DNA of 64,000 nucleotides, from assembly GCF_950295315.1 (NCBI RefSeq), contig NC_080170.1, forward strand, positions 96,562,477-96,626,476, given 5' to 3'. Shown in pieces: positions 2,432 to 57,420 of this stretch. The DNA is from Erinaceus europaeus. Its lineage: Eukaryota; Chordata; Mammalia; Eulipotyphla; Erinaceidae. Position numbers and translations under genes: made by a program. The first letter of the stretch is position 1, and each line of letters opens with the position of its first letter. A model generated the notes under the pieces. That model ran no database searches. It saw only the letters and a list, made by a program, of their open reading frames with translations, and had not been told where the DNA came from.

Positions 2432-3225
2432 CCATTTTATCTATGATCCTGCCTTCTCTTCCTTTCTTAGTCACACCTACACCTATTACTGCTTCCGAAT
2501 GCCCTTCTTTTATCTCTGGGTCCTGATGGAACTGAGAGTTCAGAGTCCTTTGGTCATCTTCCCCTAATACTTCTCCCCCTCTTGGAATATGGACCAAAAA
2601 TTTTTTTGAGGTGCAGAAGGTGAGATTTCTAGTTTCTGTAATTGTTTCTCTGCTGTACATGGGCATTGGCTGACAGGTCATTCCATACCCCCAGCCTATT
2701 TCTCTTTCTCTAGTGAGGTGGGACTCTGCAGAGGTAAAGTTTTGTGACATATTGATGAGGTCATCTGCCCAGAAAGTCCAGAATGGAATCATAGTAACAT
2801 CTGCAGCTTGGTGTCTAAAAGGCAGTAAAATATAAAGCAAGACAAAATTTTTAATGAGCAGGAACCATAAAGTAGGAATAGAACAGATGGGAACAGGGAT
2901 TTTAGGATGGACAGAAGCTAGGAAGTCTATTTTAGGGCCCTAAGACTGGTAATTTTTGCTGGAGTTTGATAGTTAACCTGCAGTTCAACTAAAAATATTG
3001 TCTACGAAGATATTGGCAGAGAAAAGAATAAAATTAGAAAGCTGGATTAGGACAGAGAGTAGCTCCCAAACTTGACGGAAGTGTATAAATACAATTAACT
3101 GTTCACCACATCAATCTGACCTAGGCTCCCTATATATTCACAGTTAGCACAGGAGCCTGTGTAACCTGTGAGTCCCTGTCAGTTTGAGCTTGCAGTCCAT
3201 GGTCACAGCTGGGAACATTCTATGC
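2205..3225 (-). repeat. Repeat X copy 1, 3' portion
   Basis: On the reverse strand this ends in an A/T-rich tail near 2205. It shares the block seen in every repeat X copy: the GGTGGTGGGAAT-like motif near the 3' end, then going 5' a stretch with 'cccagaggga', 'cttctgca' and 'ccatgttcagc'. Its 5' side stops at 3225, where the retrovirus is inserted. Alignment with the copy at 59816-60615 shows that the sequence left of 3226 and right of 5652 was once continuous. I do not recognise the family. The A-rich tail and variable 5' truncation suggest mobilisation by L1. Confidence 0.7.
2387..2429. repeat. (TA)n microsatellite
   Basis: About 21 TA dinucleotides inside the 3' half of repeat X copy 1. 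They create the poly-Tyr/Ile low-complexity frames seen on both strands. Confidence 0.97.
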
Positions 3226-4139: not shown

Positions 4140-4386
4140 ACTTAGTTAAAATATATTGCTTGTTAACTAATTTTTACCTTAGACTTTAAATGTAAGTTAA
4201 TTTTATCTTTATGAGAATTACGTTGAAAACCTTTTTCATTTAACTTTGACTAGTAAGAATTTAGCCTTAAAGCTACTGTTTACCAAACTTTAAACATACA
4301 CATAAACATGGTCATTAATACACAAGGAGAGAAACCTTTGTTAAGAAGACATGTCATTTTAAACACGAATTTAAATCTGTACTGTC

Positions 4387-5175
4387 TTAGTTGTTGGGGG
4401 GGGGTTCACCATCCGGAGGTGGCTTCCCGCGCAGCTTCACTTCTAGGAATTGCAGGTTGCGATCTCTGTACAAATCTCTGCGTACTCCAGCTTGTCTGCC
4501 TTCAGACCGGACCGGCAGCTGGAGATCTCGTGTGCCCAGTTTCGGCAGGGAGCCCGGGGGTCCGGGAGGCCCGGGATGGTTCCAGAATTCATAGCAAGAG
4601 GGCAGGCGGGCCAGTTTTGTAGAAGGCGTGGGCCTAGGTGCCCAGGGGTGGCGGCCATGATAGGCCGCCGCGGCCCTGCCCCATGGCCCTGCCATGTCTG
4701 CTGCGCTGCTCACAGTGGCCAAGCAGCGTGGAGGGATCACGCGTCCAGTGCCCTGCGCCACGCGGTGGAGAGCCGGCTCCTGTGGGCTGGCCTCAGGCTC
4801 TTGCGTGTTGGCATCGGGCTCCAGCGTGTTGGCATTGGGCTCCAGCGTGTTGGCATCGGGCTCCAGCGTGTTGGCATCGGGCTCCAGTGTGCTGGCATTG
4901 GCCTCTTGCGGGCTGCGGGGCTTTGGGGCTGCAGGCGCGGTGCGCGGGGTTGTCTGGGCACAGCCGGCTGGCTGGCTGTTTAACCAGGTGGAAACGGCAG
5001 CTCCACGCCTCGCCTCCCTCCCACTGGCTCTTCCCGCTGGCTGTTCTGAGTTCGCCCGAGCGAGTGGAAACCACAGAGTGGTCCAGAGATAAATGTTCCA
5101 GAAATAGCAAAACAGTCTCGTGAAGAAAGAGCAGAGGCCTTTGGAGATCTTTTCACAAGCAGAAGAGAAGGCCAT
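4387..5175 (-). CDS. Uncharacterised ORF in the provirus leader/internal region
   Basis: This is the longest open frame in the window. From the ATG at 5175 it encodes about 262 residues. The frame stays open upstream to an ATG at 5358 inside the LTR, for 323 residues, but that start would lie before or within the primer-binding region and is less likely. The first 45 residues contain a hydrophobic stretch (LFCYFWNIYLW). The middle carries seven-residue repeats of the ANTLEPD type encoded by a minisatellite. The C-terminal third is Pro/Gly/Arg-rich (PGPPGPPG). I see no myristoylation start, capsid motif or zinc knuckle, so it cannot be called Gag. Other long frames overlap it on both strands, so the openness may come from high GC content and the 21-bp repeat. 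Function unknown. Confidence 0.3.
   Translation of the reverse strand: MAFSSACEKISKGLCSFFTRLFCYFWNIYLWTTLWFPLARANSEQPAGRASGREARRGAAVSTWLNSQPAGCAQTTPRTAPAAPKPRSPQEANASTLEPDANTLEPDANTLEPNANTLEPDANTQEPEASPQEPALHRVAQGTGRVIPPRCLATVSSAADMAGPWGRAAAAYHGRHPWAPRPTPSTKLARLPSCYEFWNHPGPPGPPGSLPKLGTRDLQLPVRSEGRQAGVRRDLYRDRNLQFLEVKLRGKPPPDGEPPPNN
4804..4908 (-). repeat. 21-bp minisatellite inside the provirus ORF
   Basis: Five tandem 21-bp units; the first four differ at one position and the fifth is diverged. The unit length is a multiple of three, so gain or loss of units keeps the frame and encodes ANTLEPD-like heptads on the reverse strand. The opposite strand also stays open across it. Confidence 0.9.
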
Positions 5176-5226
5176 AGTGCTTAAGTAGCCAAATTTGTCT
5201 TTACTTATCTGAGAGATGCGCAGGTC

Positions 5227-5244
5227 AGGTCCACGTGGGCGCCA
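5227..5244 (-). other. Primer-binding site, lysine tRNA-like
   Basis: Read on the reverse strand, two bases after the LTR end comes TGGCGCCCACGTGG. This matches the Lys1,2 primer-binding site of HERV-K-like retroviruses except for one missing A and some changes further in. It fixes the element's orientation and supports class II membership. Confidence 0.75.
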
Positions 5245-5246
5245 TT

Positions 5247-5642
5247 TGTTGTTAAAATTTCGTAGGCTCTTGCCAGCCGGGCTAGCTTCACGGGCGGGTA
5301 ACAGAGACGCGGAGACAATGGCTGGGCAGGGAAGCTGTATCTCTTTATTCAGGAACAACGATTCATAAACTAAGACAAACTAATCACCAAACAGAACTCT
5401 GCTGTCTCTTTGCGGTGGCGCAAGCACTCTCTCTTACTCTCGAACTCTGGAACTCTCTTTTACTCTCAAACTCTGAAACTCTCTCCAACTCTTCCTCTGC
5501 CACTCTCGAACTCTGCAACTCTTCAACTCTGGAACTCTGGTGGGGTCCCTAGGGGCGGGGCCAAGCGGGCCCGCGAAATTAACTGGACTGATCTAATTCT
5601 CTTGGCAGGGGAGAACTAGAACCCAATGTAAAGCATACAACA
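5247..5642 (-). repeat. 5' LTR of the provirus
   Basis: About 396 bp, with the same ends as the 3' LTR and AATAAA at 5344-5349 on the reverse strand. A GC-box-like CCCCGCCC lies in the upstream third. The pyrimidine-rich GAACTCT-like block around 5420-5545 is longer than in the 3' LTR. As the upstream LTR, this is the element's promoter and would transcribe leftward. Confidence 0.88.
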
Positions 5643-19390: not shown

Positions 19391-22300
19391 TTTTTTTTTA
19401 TTATTTCTTTATTGGGGAATTAATGTTTTACATTTGACAGTAAATACAATAGTGTGTGAATGCATAGCATTTCCCAGTTTTCCATATAACAATACAACCC
19501 CAACTAGGTCCTCTGTCATCCTTTTTGGACCTGTATTCTCCCCTCCACCCACACCAGAATCTTTTACTTGGTGCAATACACCAACTCAAGTTCAGGCTCT
19601 ACTTGTGTTTTATCTTCTGATCTTGTTTTTCAACTTCTGCCTGAGAATGAGATAATAACATATTCATCCCTCTGTTTCTGACTTATTTCACTTAACATGA
19701 TTTTTTTCAAACTCCATACAAGATTGGCTGAAAACAGTGAAGTCACATTTTCAATAGCTTCGTAGTATTTCATTATGTATATATACCACAACATGCACAG
19801 TCAGTCATCTGTTGCTGGATACCTTGGTTGCTTCCAGGTTTTGGCTATTACAAATTGTGCTGCTAAGAACATATGTGTACACAGATCTTTTTGGATGGGT
19901 GTGTTGGGTTCCTTAGGATCTATCCCAAGGAGAGGAATTGCAGGATCATAGGGTAGGTCCACTTCTAGCCTTCTGGGAGTTCTCCAGACTGTTCTCCACA
20001 GAGGTTGGAACAATTTACATTCCTACCAGCAGTGCAGGAGGGTTCTTTTGACCCCACAACATCTCCAACATTTGTTGCTGTTACCTTTTTAGATGTCTGA
20101 CATTCTCACCTGAGTATTAGTTCTTCTTTGAAGGTTTTGTAGAATTCATTTGTAAAACCATCTGGTCTAAGACTTTTATTTTGGGGGAGGTTTTTGATAA
20201 TTGTTTCAATTTCATTAGCTGTGATGGGCCTATTCATATTATCTACTTCCTCTTTACTTAATTTTGGAAGTTCATAGGTATCTAGGAAATCATCCATTTA
20301 TTCCAGGTTCTCCAACTTGGTGGCATATAGTTGTTCATAGAAGCCTCACATGATATGTATTGAATTTCTACAATGTGTGTTGTGATATCTCCTGTCTCAT
20401 TTATGACCCAATTTATTTGGGTCTTCTCACTTTTTTGTTTTGTGAGTCTGGCTAAACGTTTGTTGATTTTGATTATTCTTTTGAACAACCAACATTTACT
20501 TTTGTTGATCTTTTGTATGGTTTTCTTATTTTCAGTGTTACTTAATTCTGCCCTAACTTTAGTTATTTCTGTCCTTCTGGTTGCTGTAGGGTTCCTTTGT
20601 TCTTCTTCTTCTAGGTCTTTAGGATGTGCAATCAGGCTATTTATTTGTGCTTTTTCTTGTTTCCTAATGTGTGCTTGTATGGCTATGAACTTCCCTCTCA
20701 GTACTGTCTTAGCTGTGTCCCAACTATTTTGATAGTTTGTGTCTTCATTTTCATTGAACTTCAAAACAATTTGATTCCTTCATTTCCTCTTTGACTTAGT
20801 AGTTGTTAAGTAGTGTACTGTTGAGCTTCCACATTTTGGAACTATTAATAATCTTTTTCTGATTGTTAAGTGTTAGTTTAATTCCACTGTGGTCTGAGAA
20901 GATGCTTGCAATGATTTCAATGCTCTTGAATTTGCTGATGCTGTCTTTGTGGCCTAACATGGTTATTCTAGAGAATGACTCATGTGGACTTGAGTAGAAA
21001 GTTTGTTCCAGTTTTTTGTGGTGAATGACTTTGAAGATGTCCAATAGTTCTAGTTTATCTATCTCCTCATTTAGCTACCTCATGTCTTTATTGATTTTCT
21101 GCCTGGATGATCTGTCAAGTTGAGAGAGTGGGGTGTTGAAGTCCCCTACTATGAGTTTGTTACTATTAATACATTGCTGTAGCTCTTTCAGTAGATGTTT
21201 GATGTATTTAAATGGCTTTTCATTGTGTGCATAGGTGTTAAATAATTGTTAAGTCCTCTTGATTGACTGATCCTCTGAGCATTAGGTAATGTATATACCT
21301 ATGTTTTTAATTTTTATTTATTTTAAAGTCTATCATGTCCGATATAAGAATAGCTGTTATTTGTGGGCAATTGGCTTGTATGATAGTTTTCCATCCTTTC
21401 ACTTTGAGTCTGTTTGTCTTGTTGAGTTAGGTGGGTTTCCTGAAGTCAGAATATTGTTAGGTTGTGTCTTCTGATCCATCTTCCTACTCTATGCCTTTTA
21501 ATAGGTGAATTCAGGCCATTGAAATTTATTGATATCAAAGATTGAAGATGTTTTTTTTAATTTTTTTATCTGCTGCTAACCTTATGGGTTTTCCTCTGTA
21601 GGTAACTCTTTGTCCTCGATCTTGTTAATTCTGTCTTCAGCCTCATTTATTCTGTTCTCCCTCCCCTGTACTATTTTCTGGTGTTCATCTATTTTGTTAC
21701 CCTGTTTTGATACTATTTTAGCTTGTTCAGCTAGTTGTGTTCTTAGCTCAGTTATTTCAGCTTTCAGCTCTCTAATAACCTTGAGATAATTAGTGTTTTC
21801 TTCCAGAGTCTCATTTGTAGTTTATATGTTTCTGATGACAATTCTTTCAAAATCTTTACTCACTCATGTGGTTATTTCATTAACTAGTGTTTGGATGTTG
21901 ACCTCATTATTTTGTGCTTAAACATTTGGGGGGATTTTAGCTGGACTCTCGTCCTAGTTTATTTCTCCAATATTTCTTATTATTGGCTTAACCATTCTAT
22001 ATAGTATGTTATGAGGTCCCTCTCTCAGTACTATTCAAATTACTGATCACTCTTGCCTGGATTGATTTGTGTCTAAGTAAGGAACTTAAGGGTTCACAGT
22101 TGTGAAATTAACAGTTTTATCAATATTATTTCAATCCCTGACTTGAAATACAGTAGCTTTTAAACCTCTTTTGTTCTTTTTCTTCCCTGTAGTCTATGGG
22201 AGCCTGTGGGCTTTTAAACTCTAAGTATGTTTCTTAGCTTAATCCCTCACTCCTGACCAAGAAATAAAGCAGGGTGGGGAGAGATAATATAGTGTCTATG

Positions 22301-23934: not shown

Positions 23935-24383
23935 ATTCTCCTAGTTAATGGATTGCAGATGCTATTGTAAAAGGAATTTGCACATATGATTACAATGGCC
24001 TATCAATTGAAGAAACATCAGCTGGATCTAACCTAGTCCTGTTTACCCTACAAATCTAAATCTAAAGTCAGAGACAGGAAAATCAAAGATTAAAATTTTG
24101 AGAGGCATGCTTCAATTCATTTAAAGAAAAAAAAGTAAACATTAATAAGGAACTTCATGTAGCCACTATGAACAGAGTGGTCCCTGAACAATATCTAAGG
24201 GGGGGGACATGATATAGTTGCAAATAGCTCAATTTGGCCAACAACCCTAATAAGTTTGGAAAGTACACTAATTCTAAGAAAATGGCAGGATGATCAACTC
24301 TTGTTTGTAGATTTTAATGAATCTGTAAAAGCCAGCACAAAGAACATAGATGTACCATCCTTACGTTGCAGAACTGAAGAATT
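23935..24383. other. No identified feature
   Basis: AT-rich sequence with no recognisable gene or repeat. Confidence 0.4.
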
Positions 24384-24398
24384 AGAAATAGATAAATA

Positions 24399-24682
24399 GG
24401 GAGTCAGGCAGGTTAAGCACAGCAGGTTAAGTGCAGGTGGCACAAAGTGCAAGGGCTGGCACAAGGATCCCTGTTCGAACCCCTGGCTCCCCAACTGCAG
24501 GGAAGTCACTTTACAAGTGGTGAAGCAGGTCTGCAGTGTCTATCTTTTTCTCCCCTCTCTGTCTTCCCTTCCTTTCTCCATTTCTCTCTGTCCTATCCAA
24601 CAACAATGACATCAATAATAAACACCAATAAAACAACAAGGGCAACAAAAGGGAATAAATAAATAAATATTTTTTTTAAAAA
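24399..24682 (+). mobile_element. SINE, family A
   Basis: Head gggagtcaggcaggttaagc with a small rearrangement (a duplicated 'ggttaag'), B box TGTTCGAACCC, and an (AAAT)n tail. Perfect 15-bp duplication agaaatagataaata at 24384-24398 and 24683-24697. Confidence 0.93.
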
Positions 24683-24699
24683 AGAAATAGATAAATAAA

Positions 24700-26450: not shown

Positions 26451-26686
26451 AATATTCTAAGAGATAATGTGATGTATCACTACTTCCTGTCAGCTTACTA
26501 TTTAAACTTTATTCTCAAATGTAAAGTCTTTTGAAATCCTATGAAATTTCATCTCTAGTTTCCCTGGCAACTATCACATGTCACTCATGGATGTTCTGAA
26601 GCACACAGGTAATATTCTATCTCATCACCTCAGTTTTAAATCCAGAAAAAGACAAATGAAATGGCTTCCAGTAAGTCCTTAAGGCT

Positions 26687-27258
26687 TCTTCTTCTAGCGT
26701 TTGCCCTTCTTCCATAGCCAGTCAACAGCGTCAGGTGGAGCCTAATGTAAAGTTTCGAGACCTCCTTTGAATCTAGAGAGGTGGCAGTCGTTGACTATGT
26801 GGGTCATAGTCTGTCTGTAGCCGCAGGGGCAGTTTGGGTCATCTCTGGCTCCCCAGCGATGGAACATAGCGGCGCACCGGCCATGGCCTGTTCGATAGCG
26901 ATTGAGGAGGGCCCAATCATAACGTGCTAGGTCAAAGCCGGGTTGACGCTTGCAGGGGTCTGTGCTGAGGTGTTTGTTCTTTACCTCAGCTGACTGCCAA
27001 CTCTGTTTCCAAGAGACTGGAACAGAGAAGTTCAGTGTAGGTGTAGGGGACCAGATTGGGTGACGAGACGTCAAGCGTTGGACAGGGTGGGCGAAGATAT
27101 CCGAGTATATTGGCAGGTCCGGTCGAGCGTAGATGTGGGAAATGAACTTAGATGATGCCGCATCCCGACGAATATCTGGCGGGGCGATGTTGCTAAGAAC
27201 TGGCAGCCATGGAACCCGGGTGGAACGGATGGTTCCAGAAATTATCCTCATGGAGGAA
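26687..27258 (-). mobile_element. Non-L1 non-LTR retrotransposon, 5'-truncated copy 1
   Basis: A GC-rich island of about 572 bp in AT-rich surroundings, coding on the reverse strand for the C-terminal region of a non-LTR retrotransposon polyprotein (see the pseudogene entry). On the coding strand it ends only about 10 bp after the natural stop codon, in AAG repeats, with no poly-A. Flanks carry the same 7-bp taaggct (26680-26686 and 27259-27265), a plausible but short target duplication. Protein features do not match L1 or BovB/RTE. I cannot name the clade. Confidence 0.8.
26694..27251 (-). pseudogene. Non-LTR retrotransposon ORF, C-terminal domain, one nonsense change
   Basis: Open for 169 codons from the first ATG (27251), although the true protein would start far upstream. 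Residues 4-31 (ISGTIRSTRVPWLPVLSN, IAPPDIRRDA) resemble the segment that follows the reverse transcriptase domain in Jockey/I/R1-type elements. Residues 113-126 are WALLNRYRTGHGRC. Residues 141-156 form CPCGYRQTMTHIVNDC, a CxC-x7-H-x4-C zinc-binding-like motif. At 26742 a TAG replaces the CAG seen in copy 2; beyond it the frame continues APPDAVDWLWKKGKR to a natural TAG at 26694-26696. So one point mutation is the only visible break in about 185 codons, which implies a recent insertion. Family assignment is from memory of related proteins, not a search. Confidence 0.78.
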
Positions 27259-27451
27259 TAAGGCTGTAGAGATAAAAAGAAAAGAATGTAAGTCTGAGCT
27301 GCAAAAGAAAGTAAAAAAAATCTACCATGTTTACTAGTCTTATCCTTTCCACATTTTTTTCATTTCTCTTTTTTTTAATGCAGCCATGAGAGACCCAAAA
27401 TTTAATGTAAATTTTATTGGAGGTCAAGTTTTTCTTTCTGCATTAGTTTTC

Positions 27452-28287
27452 CTTTTTAAAAATTTATTTATAAAAAAAGAAACACTGACAAAACCATAGG
27501 ATAAGAGGGGTCTAACTCCACACAAGTCCCACCACAAGAACTCCATATCCCATCCCCTCCTCTGATAGCTTTCCTATTCTTTAACCCTCTGGGAGTATGG
27601 ACTCAAGGTCATTGTGGGATGCAGAAGGTGGAAGGTCTGGCTTCTGTAACTGCTTCCCCGCTGAACATGGATGTTGGTAGGTCTATCCATACTCCCAACC
27701 TGCTTCTCTCTTTCCCTAGTGGGGCAAGGTTCTGGGGAATTGGAACTCCAGGACACATTGATGGGGTTTTCTGTCCAGGAAAGTCTGGTTGGCACCATGC
27801 TAGCAACTAGAACCTGGTGGCTGAAAAGAGAGTTAATATATAAAGCCAAACAAATCGTTGACTAATCATGAACCTAAAAGCTGGAATAGTGCAGATGAAG
27901 AGTTGGGGAGGGGGGTCCTCTGTTTTTTAGATAGCTAGTAGGCATATTTTAGTTTTATTGCAAAGGGCCTGTGGCTATACTAATTTTTTTTTTCCTTGAG
28001 CCTGAAATCTGATATGCAGGTAAATCCAACTTATTGTCTGAGGAGATGATATAATGGCTGGAAAAAAGGGCCAGAAAGCTGTATCAGGGAAGAGAGTAGC
28101 TCCCAAATATGGGAAAGGTGTATAAATATTGTTGACTATAAACCCCATCGATTTGATGTGGTCTGGGGCTCATATTCAGCTTAGGAGCCTGTGTGACTAC
28201 TGCATGCATATAGATCTGAGCTCACATTCTGTGGTCATGAGTAGGAATGTTCCAACCTTCCCCAATTTCAGAACCCAATTTTATGGT
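27452..28287 (-). repeat. Repeat X copy 2 with a 31-bp target duplication
   Basis: An 836-bp reverse-strand copy: A/T-rich tail at 27455-27480, the GGTGGGACTTGT-like 3' block, and 'cttctgcat', 'ccatgttcagc' and 'ccataggata' landmarks. It is bounded by a perfect 31-bp direct repeat at 27421-27451 and 28288-28318. The flanks and A-rich end show integration by target-primed reverse transcription, typical of L1 machinery. Confidence 0.8.
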
Positions 28288-31830: not shown

Positions 31831-31845
31831 AGGGCATATAATCTC

Positions 31846-31915
31846 GAAACTTTACATCAGGCTCAACCTGACGCTGTTGACTGGCTACGGAAGAAGGGCA
31901 AACGCTAGAAGAAGA
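31846..31915 (+). mobile_element. Non-L1 non-LTR retrotransposon, 70-bp copy 2
   Basis: Encodes ETLHQAQPDAVDWLRKKGKR and a stop, then AAGAAGA, matching the last codons and tail of copy 1 with few differences and without its nonsense mutation. It is flanked by a perfect 15-bp duplication agggcatataatctc (31831-31845 and 31916-31930). The duplicated target ends in ctc, which is also the element sequence just upstream of the truncation point (ctcgaaac), suggesting microhomology joining at the 5' end. Confidence 0.9.
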
Positions 31916-31930
31916 AGGGCATATAATCTC

Positions 31931-57160: not shown

Positions 57161-57420
57161 TAGGAGGTGTGGCTACGGAATAAGGGCAGACAAAACAGAC
57201 TCTCCCCCAGTACAACAAACATCTACAGCTATCAATCTTAACAAACCTCACCAACTTCAACTAAGACATTCGCAGAAGCACTGCAGCCTCAGGCGCATGT
57301 TTACATGCATAGTTGGGGCAAGAAGGGTTACCGTGTGGAATTGAAACCAAACACACAGAGGTTATAAACTCCAGCAAAGTACAGTGACATTTTCCTTCAA
57401 ACACTCTATCTACTCAATTA
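57161..57420 (+). repeat. Possible L1 5' UTR-like sequence
   Basis: 'aggaggtgtggctacggaataag' followed by 'actctcccccagtac' recalls the GGAGGxGTGGC start of some L1 5' regions, but nothing else supports it. Function otherwise unknown. Confidence 0.25.

Follow-up and report, generated by a model that had tools for sequence, protein, structure and literature searches.

A 5′-truncated LINE copy, most likely of the Vingi-1_EE family, in the genome of the hedgehog Erinaceus europaeus

We analyzed a stretch of 64,000 nucleotides from Erinaceus europaeus (here called the window), whose reverse strand carries the 3′-terminal part of a non-LTR retrotransposon in which 1 of 187 codons is a nonsense TAG. 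A second copy, consisting of the last 71 bases of the same element, lies on the forward strand. The features of the two insertions are as follows.

27259 to 27265, reverse strand: 5′ copy of the target-site duplication AGCCTTA (7 bp), identified as a sequence repeat
26687 to 27258, reverse strand: 5′-truncated LINE copy of 572 bp, with the last 187 codons, the normal stop, and an AAGAAGA tail
26784 to 26831, reverse strand: CxC-x7-H-x4-C motif, CPCGYRQTMTHIVNDC, with its position read off the sequence and the translation
26742 to 26744, reverse strand: in-frame TAG, the sole nonsense change ahead of the normal stop
26680 to 26686, reverse strand: 3′ copy of the target-site duplication AGCCTTA (7 bp), identified as a sequence repeat
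31832 to 31845, forward strand: 5′ duplication of the second copy, GGGCATATAATCTC, 14 bases (15 with an extra matching A at 31831)
31846 to 31916, forward strand: second copy, last 71 bases of the element, differing from the first at 3 of 70 aligned bases
31917 to 31930, forward strand: 3′ duplication of the second copy, a perfect repeat of GGGCATATAATCTC

The open frame of the first copy runs from 27359 to 26742 on the minus strand (205 codons) and includes both WALLNRYRTGHGRC and CPCGYRQTMTHIVNDC. Past the in-frame TAG, which is replaced by a sense codon in the second window copy, the same frame continues to ...WLWKKGKR and then to the final TAG, and the AAG-repeat tail (AAGAAGA) abuts this stop codon. 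The G+C content was 0.533 inside the copy and 0.353 to 0.355 in the 2-kb flanks, and the observed/expected CpG ratio was 0.74 inside the copy and 0.03 to 0.06 in the flanks. In a protein search with the window product, 98 of 123 candidates had an E value of ≤10 (best E value = 2.3 × 10−54), and the frame is therefore not a chance one. Pfam and PDB searches of the window fragment gave no match, nor did tRNA and Rfam scans of the whole window. The original prediction had placed a C-terminal region of a non-LTR retrotransposon on the reverse strand at 26687 to 27258, with this cysteine-histidine motif, a single nonsense change, and a GC-rich island; its coordinates were identical to those of the element as delimited by the AGCCTTA duplication, and the other points were borne out by the frame, the composition, and the protein search. 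Because it holds only the last 187 codons and has one nonsense change, the window copy is most likely dead on arrival and probably does nothing itself.

Taken by itself, the AGCCTTA duplication is moderate evidence of insertion, because in a sample of 20,000 pairs of random 17-base stretches, 1.2% had a word of at least 7 bases in common. The 5′ boundary is nevertheless firm, since the sibling copies continue with element sequence where the window departs from it: upstream of TTCCTCC, the element's own sequence was found in 20 of 20 copies (L009 to L028), whereas the window switches to other DNA. The bases immediately before TTCC were CAAATTATA in 18 of these 20 siblings, with slight differences in the other 2, and CAGCCTTA in the window copy, whose 5′ junction has a 2-base overlap (TA) between the element and the flanking DNA. 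These boundaries bear on whether the island could be a host gene exon, or a domesticated fragment under selection, with the splice acceptor TCTACAG just before it. The frame is open and G+C rich, and a pyrimidine run ending in CAG does precede it, but a target-site duplication bounds the island at both edges, and we dropped the idea for that reason. Moreover, the frame contains a nonsense change, the genome holds thousands of copies, and the window copy is no closer to its siblings (mean distance of 4.6% from the position-ordered set defined below) than the position-ordered copies are to each other (4.3%). A host exon is thus highly improbable, and insertion of a LINE copy is the reading that we carry forward.

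When 22-base and 30-base patterns from the 3′ end were searched with up to 3 mismatches, each found just the first and second copies in the window (mean for shuffled sequences = 0.00); a candidate third copy at 57170 to 57191, which has no tail, was taken as chance. What the window contributes is two ordinary insertions, one of them very short (71 bp) with clean boundaries.

The window also holds other repeats. A tRNA-like SINE at 24377 to 24690, which resembles the hedgehog SINE, recurs at 18 further places (19 in total, the others being about 72 to 85% identical), and ARAGORN identified no tRNA gene in the window. Just upstream of the LINE copy, at 27442 to 27920, there is a repeat of ∼480 bases with 10 places in the window, the others being 69 to 86% identical. 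A block rich in G+C and CpG extends from 4380 to 5600, with up to 42 CpG in 572 bases; short tandem copies lie around 4800 to 4890, and by eye, a minus-strand stretch near 5220 to 5640 resembles a retroviral LTR. A minus-strand open frame of 165 codons at 20282 to 20779 resembles an L1 ORF2 fragment.

The original prediction had proposed searches of the hedgehog genome and of protein databases. For the first, we used the window's own assembly (2,720,570,532 bases, or 2.72 Gb, in 1172 contigs). A 25-base word taken from the 3′ end had 23,938 exact matches (11,960 + 11,978; reversed control, 0) and a 27-base word from the 5′ end had 1,461 (699 + 762; control, 0), where both counts take in internally deleted copies and the 5′ word, which holds more CpG sites, loses more exact matches than the 3′ word. 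Apart from this difference in CpG content, an excess of 3′ over 5′ ends is as expected from 5′ truncation. A protein search of the same genome gave 34,169 first-look candidates, of which the best 150, a sample biased toward young and intact copies, were scored; their identity was 95 to 100%, with no stop within the matched residues in 145 of the 150 and a longest open frame of 799 codons.

The longest copies fetched, L018 and L009, are ∼3.06 kb long and share a common 5′ end; L018 is flanked by a 14-base duplication, and no flanking repeat of at least 7 bases was found for L009. L018 has its first ATG 86 bases from the 5′ end, and roughly 986 codons separate this ATG from the stop. The frame of L018 is broken, that of L009 consists of two overlapping pieces, and the whole frame was open in none of the fetched copies. 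With its own copies broken, the genome showed endonuclease and reverse transcriptase in separate open pieces: profile searches identified endonuclease domains (PF14529/PF03372) in the 5′ open pieces of L018 and L021 and reverse transcriptase (PF00078) in open pieces of L009, L010, and L012. RNase H was found in 0 of 5 open pieces of these own copies (profile search, E value ≤ 1). AAG repeats stand directly 3′ of the stop, and AAG-repeat tails were present in both window copies and in all siblings whose 3′ ends were inspected.

Three internally deleted copies keep both ends of the element (coordinates are those of the L018 copy).

L043: 1 to 168 joined to 2649 to 3054; one of 30 loci chosen by 3′-end DNA
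L059: 1 to 125 joined to 2987 to 3054; one of 18 position-ordered loci
L076: 1 to 112 joined to 3014 to 3055; one of 18 position-ordered loci

The 30 loci chosen by 3′-end DNA include the window's own second copy. The 18 position-ordered loci came from exact 25-mer matches, and 13 of them cover the last 423 bases, the excluded ones being the two deleted copies (L059 and L076) and the shorter L065, L070, and L074. Among the 13, a sample that also leans young because an exact 25-base 3′ end is needed, the mean pairwise distance was 4.3% (3.1% outside CpG columns), and 10 carried a stop or gap within the last 423 bases. The 20 protein-chosen copies had a mean distance of 2.1% and a minimum of 0.5%. 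The mean distance among the position-ordered copies indicates that the family expanded recently. At an assumed rate of 2 to 3 substitutions per site per billion years, a distance of 1.6% to the shared source, CpG columns excluded, corresponds, very roughly, to a mean age of 5 to 8 million years, with some copies much younger.

These distances also speak to a third reading, in which the element is an ancient mammalian LINE (L2, CR1, or X12_LINE) that has been preserved. Passages of two papers (PMC5753468 and PMC9004415) describe old Vingi traces in human, under the name X12_LINE, and to that extent agree with it. The copies are, however, too little diverged for an inactive fossil from early mammals, whether judged by the mean across position-ordered copies, with or without CpG columns, or by protein-chosen pairs down to 0.5%; CpG is, moreover, well preserved in the window copy. 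On divergence and CpG retention, we accord this reading next to no probability and retain that of a recently expanded family.

Within this family, a recurrent TGA located 18 codons ahead of the normal end was carried by 7 of 13 position-ordered copies, 4 of 16 copies chosen by 3′-end DNA, and 1 of 20 protein-chosen copies (L026, L044, L045, L046, L053, L060, L061, L062, L063, L067, L069, and L071). It looks like the mark of a subfamily that either expanded with its protein shortened or was mobilized by other copies.

We surveyed duplications in 40 copies (2 window, 20 protein chosen, and 18 position ordered). A repeat of at least 7 bases was found in 22, none was found in 11, and in 7 the 5′ end lay outside the stretch; 4 of the 22 repeats were away from the tail and chance-like. 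A looser search gave longer repeats farther upstream for some of the 11 (e.g., L014), which were excluded from the count. AG was the start of 12 of the 22 repeats (1 of these chance-like), compared with 11% in a simple simulation, which in this small and mixed sample suggests priming by base pairing of the target with the AAG tail.

In the mechanism that we propose, a full copy of ∼3.06 kb would be transcribed and would give rise to a protein with endonuclease and reverse transcriptase. The endonuclease would nick the target, and reverse transcription would begin at the RNA's AAG-repeat tail, by the step of target-primed reverse transcription drawn from established LINE knowledge. Synthesis would mostly end early, leaving 5′-truncated copies between target-site duplications (truncation and duplications were both observed), and the nicked end may anneal to the AAG tail, as duplications in the small sample often start with AG. 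Near-identical copies, open frames as long as 799 codons, and duplications that start with AG are compatible with a horizontally acquired LINE that is still jumping in living hedgehogs, its sites chosen by pairing between a CT nick end and the AAG tail; we offer this reading tentatively and consider it rather unlikely.

As for protein databases, the first search gave 98 relatives with 37 to 65% identity, the top values being over short pieces. Two more searches with longer relatives gave 882 and 1,253 proteins, from each of which the best 120 were taken. In all, 304 proteins were gathered, and 235 aligned over at least 150 residues. Among these 235, one protein (P0214) had 97% identity, and the next had 57%. 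P0214 is an ENA environmental protein of 582 amino acids. Since copies in the hedgehog's own genome are 94 to 98% identical to the window (14 longest matches), P0214 falls within their spread; it was dropped as a donor trace, and, judged by its sequence, the simpler reading is that it is probably host DNA in a metagenome.

Named relatives among the matches listed were from eel, turtle, pseudoscorpion, moths, aphid, planthopper, and psyllids. The C-terminal region is homologous in the eel Synaphobranchus (P0141, 51% identity) and the turtle Trachemys (P0152, 48%), with about half of the residues differing, and in the aphid (P0281, 44%) and the pseudoscorpion (P0246, 42%), with more than half differing; these four homologues would probably also be Vingi. 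In relatives with a reverse transcriptase, the C-terminal region comes directly after it, and six relatives combine endonuclease and reverse transcriptase in a single protein. RNase H was detected in 0 of 10 relatives (E value ≤ 1) and 0 of 27 relatives (E value ≤ 0.01), some of these proteins being partial. A tree of the C-terminal region combined the window with proteins from the 304 gathered, namely, the best 70 of the unnamed relatives and 10 of the named ones; the window paired with P0214, the pair sat at an open fork among other groups, and donor claims from the tree were for this reason set aside. Alignment A1 picked out 12 pattern stretches in viral contigs and 26 in GTDB genome contigs, 0 of which were confirmed, and a tblastn search of phage records yielded two weak matches (E value = 0.4).

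Vingi, which is set apart from Ingi by a missing RNase H domain, was reportedly introduced by Kojima, Kapitonov, and Jurka in 2011 as an Ingi-related clade from hedgehogs, where it had recently expanded. It is said to lack RNase H, to have internally deleted derivatives, and to have been absent from other mammals then sequenced. The hedgehog family fits this published Vingi because the features that could be checked agree: AP-like endonuclease with reverse transcriptase (in separate pieces in the own copies and in one protein in six relatives), absence of RNase H from the 5 own pieces and from the 10 and 27 relatives, and, as for Vingi-1_EE, nonautonomous deleted derivatives with both ends (L043, L059, and L076). 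The original prediction of a recent LINE outside L1 and RTE held, with a tail unlike that of L1 and position-ordered copies differing by 4.3%. Its Jockey/I/R1-like lineage came close, the published Vingi being Ingi related, with the placement made here by description. Its suggestion of an overlooked resident family did not stand, as passages of PMC5753468 and PMC3183009 already cite Kojima et al. 2011 for hedgehog Vingi and also put reptile Vingi in print. A passage of PMC3183009 gives 311 copies of Vingi-1N3_EE with <1% divergence in Erinaceus europaeus, and the hedgehog Vingi appears there among “older likely horizontal transfers” common to several descendant species; the horizontal transfer raised in the original prediction has thus already been put forward in the literature. 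Vingi is likewise mentioned in passages on the locust (PMC3391268) and, as the entry Vingi-2_Acar, on the anole (PMC3747384). Vingi and hedgehog go unmentioned in passages of PMC5857283, and no paper was retrieved under the exact name Vingi-1_EE.

The element could also belong to a distinct, undescribed I/Ingi-group LINE family sharing the genome with the published Vingi, for which there is room insofar as the latter was compared by description. Against this, the 150 scored (best) matches all belong to one family at 95 to 100% identity, and RNase H absence, compact layout, and deleted derivatives match what is reported of the published family. Hedgehog Vingi is, in addition, cited in the passages of PMC5753468 and PMC3183009 noted above, and we judge a separate family to be very unlikely. 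We are confident that the window element is a 5′-truncated Vingi-type LINE, most likely Vingi-1_EE; it is almost certainly a copy of an already described, unusual LINE family and, as such, an ordinary find. A mammal genome with a recent gain of more than 20,000 Ingi-group LINE copies is a good case for the study of horizontal transfer, and the same hedgehog genome is a natural case for the control of a non-L1 LINE.

The LINEs known to be recently active in placental mammals are L1 and BovB/RTE. They share with the window element's family an endonuclease and a reverse transcriptase, 5′ truncation, and target-site duplications, but their C-terminal ends are unlike that of the window element, and the 3′ tail of L1 is A rich, in contrast to the AAG repeats found here, which speaks against L1 membership. 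Compared by description, no difference from Vingi-1_EE was seen. The kind of host, as judged from the tRNA-like SINE and the assembly size, is probably the same, and the Vingi-1_EE and Vingi-1N families are like the family described here in recent expansion, absence of RNase H, compactness, and internally deleted derivatives.
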